Positions 24,181-31,536 of a stretch of 64,000 bases of DNA are shown piece by piece. Made by a program: the position numbers and the translations under genes. This DNA comes from a bacterium (GTDB taxonomy: Bacteria > Electryoneota > RPQS01). Numbering within the stretch: position 1 is the first letter of the stretch; every line of letters begins with the position of its first letter. The notes beneath the pieces are model-generated. The model saw only the letters and a program-made list of their open reading frames with translations, was not told the DNA's origin and made no database searches. Where the stretch lies: positions 1 through 64,000 of the forward strand of contig JAHDVH010000003.1 in the NCBI GenBank assembly GCA_023382385.1, given 5' to 3'.

Positions 24181-24845
24181 CCCGCCGCCTTACGCAAGTC
24201 AAATACGTTCTTCCTGAAATCCCCTCGAAACAGAGCGCTGCCGGCAACCAACCGTTCGGCACCGGCCTCAACAACTGACGGCGCGGTCAGCGGATCAACG
24301 CCACCGTCCACCGAGATCATGAAGTCACCCTTTGTTTGCTGCCAGAGCCGTAAAGTCGCCAACTTCTCCAGCGCCAAGGGAAGAAACGTCTGTCCACCAA
24401 ATCCGGGATTCACACTCATGACAAGCACGATGTCAGCAATGTCGAGCACGTGTTCTATCGAGCTCACCGGAGTCGACGGGTTCACCGCAACTCCCGCACG
24501 GCAACCGAGCTCGCGAATGCGTGTCAGAGTACGGTGCAGATGAGGACTGACCTCAGAGTGGACAGTGATGGCGTCGGCACCCGCCTTCGCATAGGCTTCA
24601 ATGGAGTGTTCCGGCTTTTCGATCATCAGGTGCACGTCAAGCTCGAGCTTGGTGCAAGTTCTGATTTGCGAAATGATCGGGGGGCCAAAGGTGAGATTCG
24701 GGACGAAATGACCGTCCATCACATCGCAGTGCAGAACCGTCACCTGTTCTGATTCACACTTTCGAACTTCGTCCTCGAGATTCAGGAAGTCCGCAGACAG
24801 CAAGGACGGCGCAATGTGAATTTGATACTTTGGCTGCAAAGGCAT
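24174..24845 (-). CDS. rpe: ribulose-phosphate 3-epimerase
   Basis: A 223-residue TIM barrel that interconverts ribulose 5-phosphate and xylulose 5-phosphate in the pentose phosphate pathway. Diagnostic motifs are 'APSLLSADF', 'HCDVMDGHFVPNLTFGP', 'DVHLMI', 'VMSVNPGFGGQ' and 'ISVDGGV'. Metal and catalytic residues (His, Asp in the DVMDGHF and VDGG blocks) are all present. It overlaps the PASTA gene by one base. Confidence 0.96.
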   Translation of the reverse strand: MPLQPKYQIHIAPSLLSADFLNLEDEVRKCESEQVTVLHCDVMDGHFVPNLTFGPPIISQIRTCTKLELDVHLMIEKPEHSIEAYAKAGADAITVHSEVSPHLHRTLTRIRELGCRAGVAVNPSTPVSSIEHVLDIADIVLVMSVNPGFGGQTFLPLALEKLATLRLWQQTKGDFMISVDGGVDPLTAPSVVEAGAERLVAGSALFRGDFRKNVFDLRKAAGC

Positions 24846-25651
24846 TAGTTCGCTTCCGGATTTGCAGTACTTTCATTTGAATTGTCGGGTCCACTCTGAG
24901 GAACTGCGACAATCAATTCAACTTCTGTCATTTGTTCCACCTCGGTGCCGGACACGATGCTCTGCGCGATCACAGTACCCGCCGTAAACACATTCGTGTT
25001 CTTGCGCGTAACTTTGCCCAGCCGTAACCCTGATTCGAGCAACGCCTGACGTGCCTCATGCAGAGACAAATCCACCAGAGTTGGGACCACAATCGTCTGC
25101 GGACGCGGCCCAAGGGAGACAACCAACTGCACCGCCTCAACTCCGCGCACGGGCGTGCCGGGTTCTGGCCGCTGTTTGACTATCCCGCCCTTCGGGACGA
25201 TTGCTGAAAAATCGTAGCTAATCCCTGAAGGCGATATCAGCAAGCCTAAATTGCGGCATTCGATTTCTGCATCCCGTTGATCAAGACCAGTTAGGTCCGG
25301 AATGGCATTTATGCTCCCAGAACGTGACGGGACGATGTGAATTGTCCTGCCGGGTTTTGCAAAAGCGCCCGGAAGCGGCCGTTGTTCAAGCACAGTGCCT
25401 TCGGGCACATTCCCACCGATTTTCGCGGGTTCAACTTCGACTCGGAACCCCCCTTGCTCCGCAGTTCCGCGCGCTTCACCAATCGTCATGCCCTCAAGTT
25501 TTGGAACAGGCCTTTCGCTGCCATGACGAGTGTAAAGGGGCATGATGAGCCAGTCCGTCACCATGCCCGCAAAGAGTAACAACAAAAAAACCAGTAAGGT
25601 GCTTGCGCCGAGGATGCGCCACTTGCTCCCCGGCTGCGAGGCGGTAGGCAT
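24845..25651 (-). CDS. membrane-anchored protein with three PASTA domains
   Basis: A 268-residue protein with a short cytoplasmic N-terminus, one membrane segment (about 14-35), then three PASTA repeats (about 48-115, 116-186, 190-255), each with 'VP(K/D/T)L...G(M/L)..(G/R)(E/D)A' openings. PASTA domains bind peptidoglycan fragments. No kinase or transpeptidase domain is fused, unlike PrkC or PBP2x. A PASTA protein near rpe and rsmB recalls the rsmB-stp-prkC-rsgA-rpe neighbourhood of many bacteria with the kinase missing. It may help with wall sensing or scaffolding. Confidence 0.85.
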   Translation of the reverse strand: MPTASQPGSKWRILGASTLLVFLLLLFAGMVTDWLIMPLYTRHGSERPVPKLEGMTIGEARGTAEQGGFRVEVEPAKIGGNVPEGTVLEQRPLPGAFAKPGRTIHIVPSRSGSINAIPDLTGLDQRDAEIECRNLGLLISPSGISYDFSAIVPKGGIVKQRPEPGTPVRGVEAVQLVVSLGPRPQTIVVPTLVDLSLHEARQALLESGLRLGKVTRKNTNVFTAGTVIAQSIVSGTEVEQMTEVELIVAVPQSGPDNSNESTANPEAN

Positions 25652-29069: not shown

Positions 29070-29927
29070 CTACTGCACAGCTGTAGCAGATGCCGCCTGC
29101 GGTGCAGGAAGCAGTTTCTGCAGCAGATCCTTGACCAGCCCCTTGAGCGTCTGCGGCGATTCGATTTCGTCAAAGTGCGCCAGTAGCACGGCCGGGTCAA
29201 AGCGTCCTTCAGACAGCGCCATCACGCTTTCGACGTGATTCCGCAATTGCCGCGCATTCTCCGGCCACTCGACCCGCGTCAGCAGCTCCATGTAGTGATA
29301 GGGCACAGAAGGACGGCTGACACGCTCCCGCTCGGCGAAGTTCTGCAGAATGTCCTGCACGAGATATGGAATATCTGCGTTGCGCTCGGCCAGACTTGGC
29401 ATGCTCAGCACGTCGGAGGATATGGACTGATATAGCTCCTCTGAGAACATGCCGATTGACAGCTTCGCAGCCATCTCCCGGCTGTTCGCCGTGCACATGA
29501 TCCGCATATTCAATTTGAGTGTTTCACCCTTAGCGGTTCTGATTGCTCCGCTTGCGAAGGCATTCGCGAGCCGCTCTTGCGCGACAAGACTCAAGTCTTC
29601 GATGTTCCCGAATAGCAGTGTGCCGCCTTGTGCACGTTCGAAGACTCCGATTTCGCCCCGCAGAGATCCGACCAGCAACTGCTCCATGGATTCCGGCGTT
29701 AACCGCTCCACAGGCATGTGAACGAACGGAAGATTGGCTCTCTCCGAGCTGTTGTGAATCGCACGCGCCAGAAGCCGCTTACCTGTGCCTGCCTCGCCCA
29801 CGATCAGCACTGGAGTCGGTTTCTGCACGACGCGCTCGGCCTGTTCTGTCAGCCGGCGCATGGCCGCACTTCTGGCGACCAACGTGCCAATTGTGTAGCG
29901 GCTTTCCATCCAGTTTTTGATCTTCAT
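29070..29927 (-). CDS. degenerate sigma54-activator-like AAA+ protein
   Basis: A 285-residue protein with the fold signature of NtrC-type AAA+ domains: Walker A 'GEAGTGKR' (44-51), 'GVFERAQGGTL' (94-104), the 'FSEELYQSIS' region and a lid helix 'EWPENARQLRNHVES'. Three deviations are visible. The sigma54-contact GAFTGA loop is absent ('GSLRGEIGVFE'). The Walker B 'LFLDEI' reads 'LLFGNIE' (105-110), losing both acidic residues. No helix-turn-helix follows the AAA domain. It probably binds ATP without hydrolysing it and cannot act as a classical sigma54 activator. Start supported by GAGGA seven bases upstream. It follows the membrane-protein gene by 33 bases. Confidence 0.75.
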   Translation of the reverse strand: MKIKNWMESRYTIGTLVARSAAMRRLTEQAERVVQKPTPVLIVGEAGTGKRLLARAIHNSSERANLPFVHMPVERLTPESMEQLLVGSLRGEIGVFERAQGGTLLFGNIEDLSLVAQERLANAFASGAIRTAKGETLKLNMRIMCTANSREMAAKLSIGMFSEELYQSISSDVLSMPSLAERNADIPYLVQDILQNFAERERVSRPSVPYHYMELLTRVEWPENARQLRNHVESVMALSEGRFDPAVLLAHFDEIESPQTLKGLVKDLLQKLLPAPQAASATAVQ

Positions 29928-29960: not shown

Positions 29961-30932
29961 TTATTGCCCCATCCGCCGCGTGACCGGACTCGGCGTCCGG
30001 CGCACTCTCATTTGGGATGAGCCTGTCCCAAGGAATACCTTCTCCCCAACCTTTTCCGTATCAAAAAAAGTCCGTAAAATAAGGCGGTCAAACCTGCCAA
30101 TCCTCCGATCAATAGCAGGGTCATCAGATAGGCATTGGGACTCATAATAATCAGCTATGGTTTGTGACTTGAACTTGATTCTCAGGGCCAGACTGACGGC
30201 CATTCCCAAATTTGCGAAGAGGATCACCCATTGCGAAATCAACAAGAATACCGGCTCTTGAGTGGGCAGCAGTAACTCTGCCGTGTCTATGCTCAGCGCT
30301 AATCCCCAGCAAAACAAGAGCGAATCGGCAAATGCACCAATGGGACGGTCCGTTCGATACTTATGCACATAGAATGCCAGCAACATCAGCAGACTGTAGA
30401 TATTCAGAACCGTCGATGAAGTATTTATTCTTGAATAGTTTGCCGATAGATTCCCGGCGGTGTCCTGAACCAGCACTCGTAGTGGGTCCCAAATATAGGG
30501 GGAATACAACCATGCGGCTATCGTGAAAAGCGCCAGCCCTGCTATCGCAGAATGCACGATCCGGCGGCGCGGCCGCGAGAGATAAGCCACTGTGATACTG
30601 GTAATGGACCACGCTATCACCACATGCACCCCGATCAGGCTGATCGAAACGTAGGCCACGATGTCGGCATATTCCAACCCAAGCCAATACACCAGAACAT
30701 AGGCGGGCAAGGTCAGTGCGTTGAGGGCAAAATAGAGCCAGATGTAAAAGAAAACTCCTCGGTAGTGTTCCTCTTGCCGATAGGCGAGGAACCCGAGGAG
30801 TGAGGATAGCGCCAACAGCGCGAAGTTGCCGAGAATGCTGGAATTCCACATCCACTCCGGCGTCGCTGGGCTGAAAAGTGTCGCTGCCACCAAAGACAGC
30901 GTGAAGACGCTATAGAAAAAAAAAGCGGCCAT
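29961..30932 (-). CDS. unknown polytopic membrane protein (about eight membrane segments)
   Basis: Approximately 323 residues. Not recognised beyond a multi-pass inner-membrane protein. Hydrophobic segments near residues 2-20, 30-48, 58-88, 97-120, 130-150, 180-200, 208-230 and 240-262 are followed by a basic cytoplasmic tail of about 60 residues ('RRIGRFDRLILRTFF', 'RVRRTPSPVTRR'). The layout resembles the 7TM-type sensor half of some histidine kinases, but no kinase domain follows. The start is doubtful: the ATG at 30932 sits inside the terminator hairpin of the preceding gene, and codons 4-6 are its U-tract. Starts at the TTG/GTG pair near 30900 are alternatives. Confidence 0.6.
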   Translation of the reverse strand: MAAFFFYSVFTLSLVAATLFSPATPEWMWNSSILGNFALLALSSLLGFLAYRQEEHYRGVFFYIWLYFALNALTLPAYVLVYWLGLEYADIVAYVSISLIGVHVVIAWSITSITVAYLSRPRRRIVHSAIAGLALFTIAAWLYSPYIWDPLRVLVQDTAGNLSANYSRINTSSTVLNIYSLLMLLAFYVHKYRTDRPIGAFADSLLFCWGLALSIDTAELLLPTQEPVFLLISQWVILFANLGMAVSLALRIKFKSQTIADYYESQCLSDDPAIDRRIGRFDRLILRTFFDTEKVGEKVFLGTGSSQMRVRRTPSPVTRRMGQ

Positions 30933-30969
30933 TGGACTTCGGATGTGCAATCCGTAAGCCAATGGCCGC
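30916..30969 (-). terminator. strong terminator overlapping the start of the membrane-protein gene
   Basis: Minus strand GCGGCCATTGG (30969-30959) pairs perfectly with CCAATGGCCGC (30935-30925). An inner CGGAT/ATCCG stem extends the hairpin, and nine Ts (30924-30916) follow. It begins 20 bases after the stop of the repeat-peptide gene, an ideal intrinsic terminator. The ATG of the next open frame (30932) is in its 3' arm. Confidence 0.88.
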
Positions 30970-30989: not shown

Positions 30990-31223
30990 CTACTTCTTCG
31001 GCTGCGGCGGCAAAACCGGACTCAGGGCGTCAAGACCCTTTTTCGGCTGCGGCGGTAACACTGGGCTCAAAGCTTCGATGCCCTTCTTTGGCTGCGGAGG
31101 CAGAACCGGGCTCAGGGCTTCAATACCCTTCTTTGGTTGGGGGGGTAAAACAGGGCTCAAGGCAGCGTGGCTCGCGACAGCGAATACAGCTACGAGGAGA
31201 ACTGCTGTGAGAAGTTTCTTCAT
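30990..31223 (-). CDS. small secreted protein made of four proline-rich 15-residue repeats
   Basis: 77 residues: a textbook signal peptide (1-20, cut expected after 'ASHA') and a mature part that is almost wholly repeats of LSPVLPPQPKKG(I/L)(E/D)A, at 22-36, 37-51, 52-66 and a partial 67-77. No family recognised. The mature peptide is basic, proline-rich, without cysteine and probably unfolded. The start has GAGG eight bases before the ATG, and a strong terminator follows, so it is a free-standing transcript. Repeat DNA differs mainly at third positions, which argues that the protein is under selection. Confidence 0.82.
   Translation of the reverse strand: MKKLLTAVLLVAVFAVASHAALSPVLPPQPKKGIEALSPVLPPQPKKGIEALSPVLPPQPKKGLDALSPVLPPQPKK
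30993..31160 (-). repeat. 45-bp in-frame tandem repeat, 3.7 copies
   Basis: Three full 45-bp units and a 33-bp partial unit inside the small secreted protein. Between the two copies nearest the 3' end, ten of fifteen codons differ; eight changes are synonymous and two conservative (I/L, E/D). Confidence 0.9.
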
Positions 31224-31536
31224 TTCATGTTCCTCATGAATTTATCGTACCCACCTGTATCGTTGGCCCAAAATACAAATCCTATGGCTACCTGTCAACT
31301 ACCTCCAAGATTTCTGAAATTTTTTGTTGAAGTTGTTATACTCAATGAAAGTAAGGTTTTGCAGGACTTATTCACACATGTTGATAATTTTGAGGCACTT
31401 CCAAGAGGCATGATGACCCTCCCAAGCTTCAAATCTGCGGCACACCGGAGCAAAATCCTGTTACTTGTTTGATGCCTGCAAGTTGCTTACATTTAAGGTT
31501 CCGCAACGGGACATTGTCCGTCCAATTTCACGTTAA
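31224..31536. other. intergenic: divergent repeat-peptide and prfA upstream region
   Basis: 313 bases, AT-rich. On the plus strand it has an extended -10 element (TG-T-TATACT, 31334-31342) without a good -35, and the candidate prfA promoter at 31465-31493. Short open frames here have no ribosome-binding site. The repeat-peptide promoter must lie between 31224 and about 31290, but no convincing pair of hexamers was seen. Confidence 0.5.
31465..31493 (+). promoter_or_regulatory. candidate prfA promoter
   Basis: TTGTTT, a 17-base spacer and TACATT, giving a start near 31500 and a leader of about 37 bases. Both hexamers are imperfect. Confidence 0.35.

Follow-up and report, generated by a model that had tools for sequence, protein, structure and literature searches.

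A proline-rich repeat peptide with a predicted signal peptide heads an operon conserved in one bacterial order

CutF of R. capsulatus and its relatives CruR and CopL are small proteins (<150 aa) with a Sec signal, encoded by the first gene of an operon; they carry a PP within the last 15 residues, in a C-terminal proline-rich motif near basic residues, and a short spacer behind them contains a stem-loop that shields the next translation start (PMC9973294). The Sec/YidC arrest peptides (SecM, VemP, MifM, ApcA, ApdA, ApdP) combine an N-terminal export signal with a conserved proline C-terminus, and secM is an upstream gene that controls a hairpin over the start region of the next gene. For arrest peptides that monitor export, a distance of >40 residues from the signal end to the arrest site has been used as a criterion (PMC7897499). 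In the attenuators mgtP of mgtCBR and mgtL of mgtA, a membrane-protein gene is preceded by a terminator-type hairpin and this, a short way ahead, by proline codons. In E. coli without EF-P, readthrough at an intrinsic terminator changes when ribosomes stall on polyproline upstream of it (PMC5021804). Multi-copy precursors such as yeast alpha-factor and insect apidaecin consist of a signal peptide and near-identical repeats with basic residues at the unit ends. Here we describe a locus that shares features with each of these groups. It lies in a 64,000-nucleotide stretch (contig JAHDVH010000003.1, positions 1 to 64,000), referred to as the window, and was compared with the corresponding loci of the same order.

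The peptide, its orthologues and its repeat units

The open reading frame at 30990-31223 (minus strand) encodes a 77-residue peptide, MKKLLTAVLLVAVFAVASHA|ALSPVLPPQPKKGIEALSPVLPPQPKKGIEALSPVLPPQPKKGLDALSPVLPPQPKK. Its first 20 residues (31164-31223, minus strand) were judged from the sequence to be a Sec-type signal peptide (MKK, a hydrophobic core and SHA|A), which predicts export. What follows consists only of LSPVLPPQPKKG(I/L)(E/D)A units, as the original prediction had stated. Tandem Repeats Finder returned a 45-bp array of 3.8 copies which, combined with codon comparison, placed the units at 31116-31160 (LSPVLPPQPKKGIEA), 31071-31115 (LSPVLPPQPKKGIEA) and 31026-31070 (LSPVLPPQPKKGLDA), all on the minus strand; of the four 15-residue repeats claimed, these three are complete, but the fourth (30993-31025, minus strand) is cut to 11 residues, LSPVLPPQPKK, and ends there at the stop codon. 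The mature peptide has 57 residues, a charge of +5 and 28% proline, which agrees with its description as a basic, proline-rich secreted peptide. A sigma70-type promoter (TTGACA-17-TATTTT; 31270-31298, minus strand) was predicted by a consensus scan about 47 bp upstream of the ATG, and a Shine-Dalgarno-like GAGGA was read at 31231-31235 (minus strand). Upstream of the peptide, each of the ten family genomes has a TTGAC(A/T)-N15-18-TATATT or similar element (with TATATT in eight of them), and GGAGG or GAGG stands before most orthologues; no sigma54 promoter was found upstream of the peptide. The promoter-like site, the ribosome binding site and the intact orthologues described below argue against a chance reading frame: the peptide gene is real and has long been conserved.

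A protein search first gave intact orthologues in the genomes G001 (68%) and G005 (52%). The others were located with the next gene, which encodes an eight-transmembrane (8-TM) protein, as the anchor, by the presence of a signal-peptide ORF with a like ending. Orthologous peptides occupy the same locus in 12 of the order's 13 genomes, among them that of the window, and ten of these 12 form one family; the absence or frameshifts in close relatives that would have spoken against the original prediction were not found. In the thirteenth genome, G006 (80% complete), neither the peptide nor prfA was found, and since prfA is missing there as well, the absence of the peptide is uninformative. All 12 N-termini are signal-peptide-like by sequence, the total length is 55-107 aa and the mature part comprises 32-87 residues.

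A proline-rich motif closes every member of this small set (n = 12), with PP within the last 15 residues and a final proline placed 2-3 residues ahead of the stop in each. The unit consensus is hydrophobic-Pro-hydrophobic-hydrophobic-Pro-Pro-x-Pro...Lys. The comparison of copy number across relatives that had been proposed gave 1 to 6 copies between species, half of the species having a single copy, and the number varies even within a genus (4 and 6 in g1, 1 and 3 in g7). The peptides end in LSPVLPPQPKK in the window (four copies), LTPVVPPQPGK in G001 (six), FTPVVPPQPKKK in G005 (four), GVIPIIPPR.. in G002 (four), GMVPVPPPPPPPK in G007 (three) and GILPVLPPPPPPPPSK in G008 (three); single copies end in GIVPVIPPGPPPKK (G003), ALIPVIPPGPPPKK (G009), GIIPIIPPVPGGK (G004) and AFNPYPPPPPPPPRK (G011).

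Searches of Pfam, NCBIfam and PHROGs gave no match to the peptide family, in agreement with the earlier statement that no family was known. Matches to PF13663 DUF4148 (E 0.05) and PDB 6kmo (E 0.011) were rejected as due to the signal peptide or composition, and a sub-cut-off match of a relative to ExtJ (E 7e-6) as one of the signal-peptide region. Two further candidates were discarded: the match G005:C200 (E 7e-5) is an unrelated CPPVNGGELED repeat, and the tandem SPQPxKGIE repeats at L003:5001-5310, found by a contig scan in an unrelated MAG, are a chance low-complexity match. An ORF of G005 with (A)TPACPPVNGGELED repeats (L030:1477-1788, plus strand) resembles a dispersed DNA repeat, not a relative.

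Synonymous changes account for 9/9, 7/9 and 9/11 of the codon differences between the full units, close to the eight of ten noted in the original prediction. Pooled over the 11-residue core, the window units differ by 0.82 per synonymous site (pS) and 0 per nonsynonymous site (pN), a comparison in which the choice of units by pattern favours a pN of 0 in the core. On the same footing, pN was 0 in G001, G005, G002 and G007 and 0.085 in G008, with pS between 0.27 and 0.80; in the four species having 4-6 units, pN of 0 went with pS of 0.66-0.82, and every internal unit was conserved like the last one. Among the units within a species none of the 11 core residues differs, and between species 2-3 of the 11 differ, in all copies. 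The mature peptides of the window and of G001 consist entirely of units and linkers. All units are clearly under purifying selection for their amino acids, and the protein sequence is maintained, as had been supposed. Codon divergence at identical residues is 0.58 within the gene and 0.50-0.59 between the orthologous genes of two genus members, against 0.66 for random choice; as the within-gene and between-orthologue values are both near saturation, the age of the units is not readable from them.

Partner genes and a possible ligand role

The operon has a conserved order: the peptide, an orphan 8-TM protein and an NtrC-type AAA protein. Of 386 genomes searched, 12 have the 8-TM protein, all of them within this order (12 of its 13 genomes), and the peptide gene accompanies it in every one, always first and at a distance of 53-71 nt. 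The AAA gene adjoins the 8-TM gene wherever the contig extends that far. This is an undescribed, order-restricted operon family.

The 8-TM protein (323 aa; 29961-30932, minus strand) has a predicted N-in/C-in topology, judged, like the signal peptide, from the sequence by hydropathy and positive-inside counts: loops predicted inside contain 2.4-2.8 K/R each and those outside 0.3-1.5, which places both termini inside. It had no match with a credible E-value in Pfam, NCBIfam or PDB and contains no kinase domain; as a single sequence it was modelled by AlphaFold2 with a mean pLDDT of 48, too low for the model to be of use. In the TM5-TM6 loop, on the predicted outer face, W-x-F-W-P-Y-x-W-x-P is kept in most members; taken together, the outer loops are not clearly richer in aromatic residues than the rest of the protein. 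Within the 3' part of the 8-TM gene, most orthologues have a hydrophobic ORF open in a different frame (L036:849-995, L037:1533-1679 and L041:1440-1646, all minus strand). It is probably a by-product of codon conservation in the main frame, and it was not found in the window, G000, G001 or G005.

The third gene (29070-29927, minus strand) encodes a 285-residue protein recognized by Pfam Sigma54_activat and AAA_lid_14. GAFTGA is absent from all ten orthologues aligned, and at the place of the canonical LFLDEI of Walker B the window protein has GGTLLFGNIED. The window's family has lost both the acidic Walker B residues and the helix-turn-helix (HTH), so that a normal transcriptional output is unlikely. 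The Fis-type HTH (HTH_8) is kept only in the two members from a sister family. There a divergent histidine kinase gene lies between the operon and prfA (L050:5100-6245 and L051:2639-3838, both plus strand); the N-terminal half of the kinase matches no Pfam family, and close relatives of the kinase turned up in the two sister-family genomes alone, with none in the window's family. The HTH-bearing AAA proteins and the adjoining kinase suggest a signalling ancestry from which the window's family diverged. The PEP-CTERM kinase PrsK was considered as a relative and rejected, as nothing in the order matched it over the cut-off. The pseudo-AAA protein of the window has been retained in its operon position despite its degeneration. 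Elsewhere in the window, between rpe-like and rsmB-like genes, 24845-25651 (minus strand) encodes a membrane-anchored protein that appears by eye to be a stand-alone PASTA-repeat protein without a kinase domain.

We tentatively favour the reading that an abundant, exported polyproline peptide is the ligand or partner of a scarce 8-TM protein. The peptide would be the promoter-proximal, and probably abundant, product of an envelope operon; it would be exported by Sec, and its proline-rich units would form polyproline-II segments outside the inner membrane, thus offering the 8-TM protein a one- to six-valent ligand or partner. The most plausible contact would be the aromatic TM5-TM6 loop, and the 8-TM protein would presumably relay its binding state to the NtrC-type AAA protein in the cytoplasm. 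The promoter before the peptide and the terminator-like hairpin after it are in keeping with strong expression of the first gene. The reading also draws on the constant pairing with the 8-TM gene, the equal conservation of all units, the copy number that varies within a genus, the outer position predicted for the aromatic loop and the signalling ancestry suggested by the sister family. Against it stand the fixing of the motif 2-3 residues from the stop, which a free ligand would not need, the buried start codon of the 8-TM gene, the degenerate AAA protein and the outer-loop aromatic density given above.

A predicted hairpin over the 8-TM start codon

The spacer between the first two genes was predicted to fold into a 19-bp hairpin, P2 (30925-30969, minus strand), with fold z values of -5.9 and -6.0. 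The ATG of the 8-TM gene (30930-30932) lies in its 3' arm. A run of nine T (30916-30924, minus strand) follows inside the first 8-TM codons and gives the whole the shape of an intrinsic terminator; a simple terminator scan did not pick it up. Among the ten family genomes, fold z is -3.4 or lower in nine, being weak in G004 and in the sister family. The predicted unpaired probability of the start codon is 0.00 in seven of the ten, the window included, and 0.14 in one; in G004 and G005, and likewise in both sister-family genomes, the codon is partly accessible. The outer stem covaries: in eight genomes five of its nine pairs have changed on both sides, and 95.8% of the cells can pair against 29-56% in slid versions. 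The covariation score was 0.60 compared with 0.31 in shuffles (0 of 500), in an alignment that was anchored on the start codon, had the arms joined by an artificial spacer and was made knowing the structure, so that the count leans toward structure, but in which, of the two arms, only the 3' one is coding. By prediction, then, the hairpin is a conserved terminator-like lock on the start codon, and it would keep the membrane protein scarce relative to the peptide. A match to Rfam isrG was rejected as chance (14.8 bits vs 100). This lineage may use start-codon hairpins of the kind seen at 30925-30969 as a general device of gene expression.

The original prediction was partly supported: a basic repeat peptide under selection, exported to judge by its signal peptide, stood, but the operon, the start-codon hairpin, the variation in copy number and the fixed C-terminal motif had been missed. 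The position of this motif raises an alternative of the CutF/SecM kind, in which the proline-rich, basic C-terminus would halt the ribosome close to the stop codon. Export, or the capacity for translating proline (EF-P), would set this pause, which in turn would decide between opening of the hairpin and termination; the free peptide would then be a by-product. The buried start codon also points to active control, and the precedents known for this are nascent-chain regulators. We consider this explanation possible, if doubtful. In silico, P2 pairing persists after deletion of the first 15 nt past the stop, and its base lies about 20-42 nt after the stop, which, given the usual size of a ribosome footprint, is beyond the reach of a ribosome paused at the last proline. 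In favour stand the CutF-like architecture (PMC9973294), the last proline within 2-3 residues of the stop in 12 of 12 orthologues, the start codon buried in eight of ten family genomes behind a covarying outer stem, and the finding that polyproline stalling can alter the readthrough of a downstream terminator (PMC5021804). Against it, the internal units are selected like the last one, yet only the last could pause a ribosome at the stop. PPP does not occur in the window species, G001, G002, G004 or G005, and there are no conserved Cys/His metal ligands (ten of 12 mature peptides have neither residue, G004 has a lone Cys and G002 a lone His). The stretch after the signal is only 32-33 residues long in G003, G004 and G009 and 34-37 in G011 and G012, below the >40 residues of the export-monitoring peptides (PMC7897499), which the window peptide with its 57 exceeds. 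The conserved internal repeats, the absent metal ligands and the very short orthologues make nascent-chain control less probable, but it stays the main rival.

Remaining explanations and comparison with described systems

A structural role in the envelope is decidedly improbable. The exported basic, proline-rich repeats would serve as a small scaffold attached to peptidoglycan, LPS or an outer-membrane protein, and the operon partners would share only the regulation of the peptide. The window peptide is indeed basic and rich in proline, and genes for a lipid A acyltransferase and a heptosyltransferase-family protein do adjoin the operon. With a mature charge that in eight of the 12 species is only 0 to +2, and a length down to 32 residues, the peptides would make a poor polymer-binding scaffold, however, and the co-occurrence with the 8-TM and AAA genes would be left unexplained. 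Very improbable indeed is an antimicrobial or signal pro-peptide, from which cleavage at Lys would free short proline-rich peptides acting on other cells as in insect apidaecin-type precursors: Lys/Arg does follow shortly after each proline run, the copy number varies from 1 to 6 and the unit endings resemble the PPxPR ends of proline-rich antimicrobials, but the peptide is conserved vertically at one locus with the same partners across the order, half of the species have a single copy, and no recognised exporter, immunity or modification gene was found beside it.

The ligand reading that we favour and nascent-chain control are not exclusive, since the synthesis of a ligand could also gate its receptor. 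The operon is a natural experiment: the copies of the proline motif number from 1 to 6, and the hairpin and orphan membrane gene behind them stay the same. It can tell whether the C-terminal proline motifs of small exported proteins are nascent-chain switches, secreted ligands or both. If nascent-chain control is true, CutF-type control reaches beyond metals; if ligand binding is true, there is a new family of 8-TM receptors and a role for pseudo-AAA proteins.

With the CutF-like sensors the locus shares a small first gene with an N-terminal signal (55-107 aa, 12 of 12), a C-terminal proline-rich motif near basic residues, and a short same-strand spacer of 53-71 nt with a stem-loop over the next start, buried in eight of ten family genomes. 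It differs from them in that the peptides have no metal-binding Cys/His, half of the species carry the motif in tandem and conserve every unit, the hairpin also has the shape of an intrinsic terminator, the next gene encodes an orphan 8-TM protein instead of a metal protein, and the shortest members have about 32 mature residues. The export signal and the conserved proline C-terminus recall the Sec/YidC arrest peptides, and the hairpin over the next start region recalls SecM in particular. Unlike in those systems, there is no RAPP/RAGP-type arrest sequence, the downstream gene is not sec or yidC (the 8-TM gene has no credible Pfam or NCBIfam match), and several members are too short to reach the translocon while paused. 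Like mgtP and mgtL, the locus has proline codons closely followed by a terminator-type hairpin and then a membrane-protein gene, but here the ORF encodes a signal peptide and a selected repeat protein, the proline codons are near background (CCG 0.54 vs 0.46), and no alternative antiterminator pairing was seen, P2 staying folded with the upstream segment removed. From the multi-copy precursors, whose layout of signal peptide, near-identical repeats and basic unit ends it shares, the family differs in being bacterial, in its common single-copy orthologues and in its tie to a membrane/AAA operon.

Sigma54 enhancer-binding proteins have GAFTGA, an intact Walker B and an HTH, all of which the third gene of the window lacks or has altered; compared with peptide-receptor two-component systems, which combine an exported peptide with a membrane histidine kinase as receptor and a response regulator, the 8-TM protein is without a kinase domain, and a separate histidine kinase gene adjoins the operon only in the sister family. 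It is unlikely, though conceivable, that all the parts combine into a new type of Gram-negative-type peptide-receptor system, in which tandemly amplified polyproline-II units would be bound by the aromatic extracytoplasmic loop of an orphan 8-TM receptor, this receptor would report to a pseudo-AAA protein, the hairpin would set the ratio of ligand to receptor as both terminator and start lock, and the nascent ligand might also pause at its own stop. Set beside the systems above, the locus looks like an undescribed regulated envelope system, so far seen in one bacterial order.
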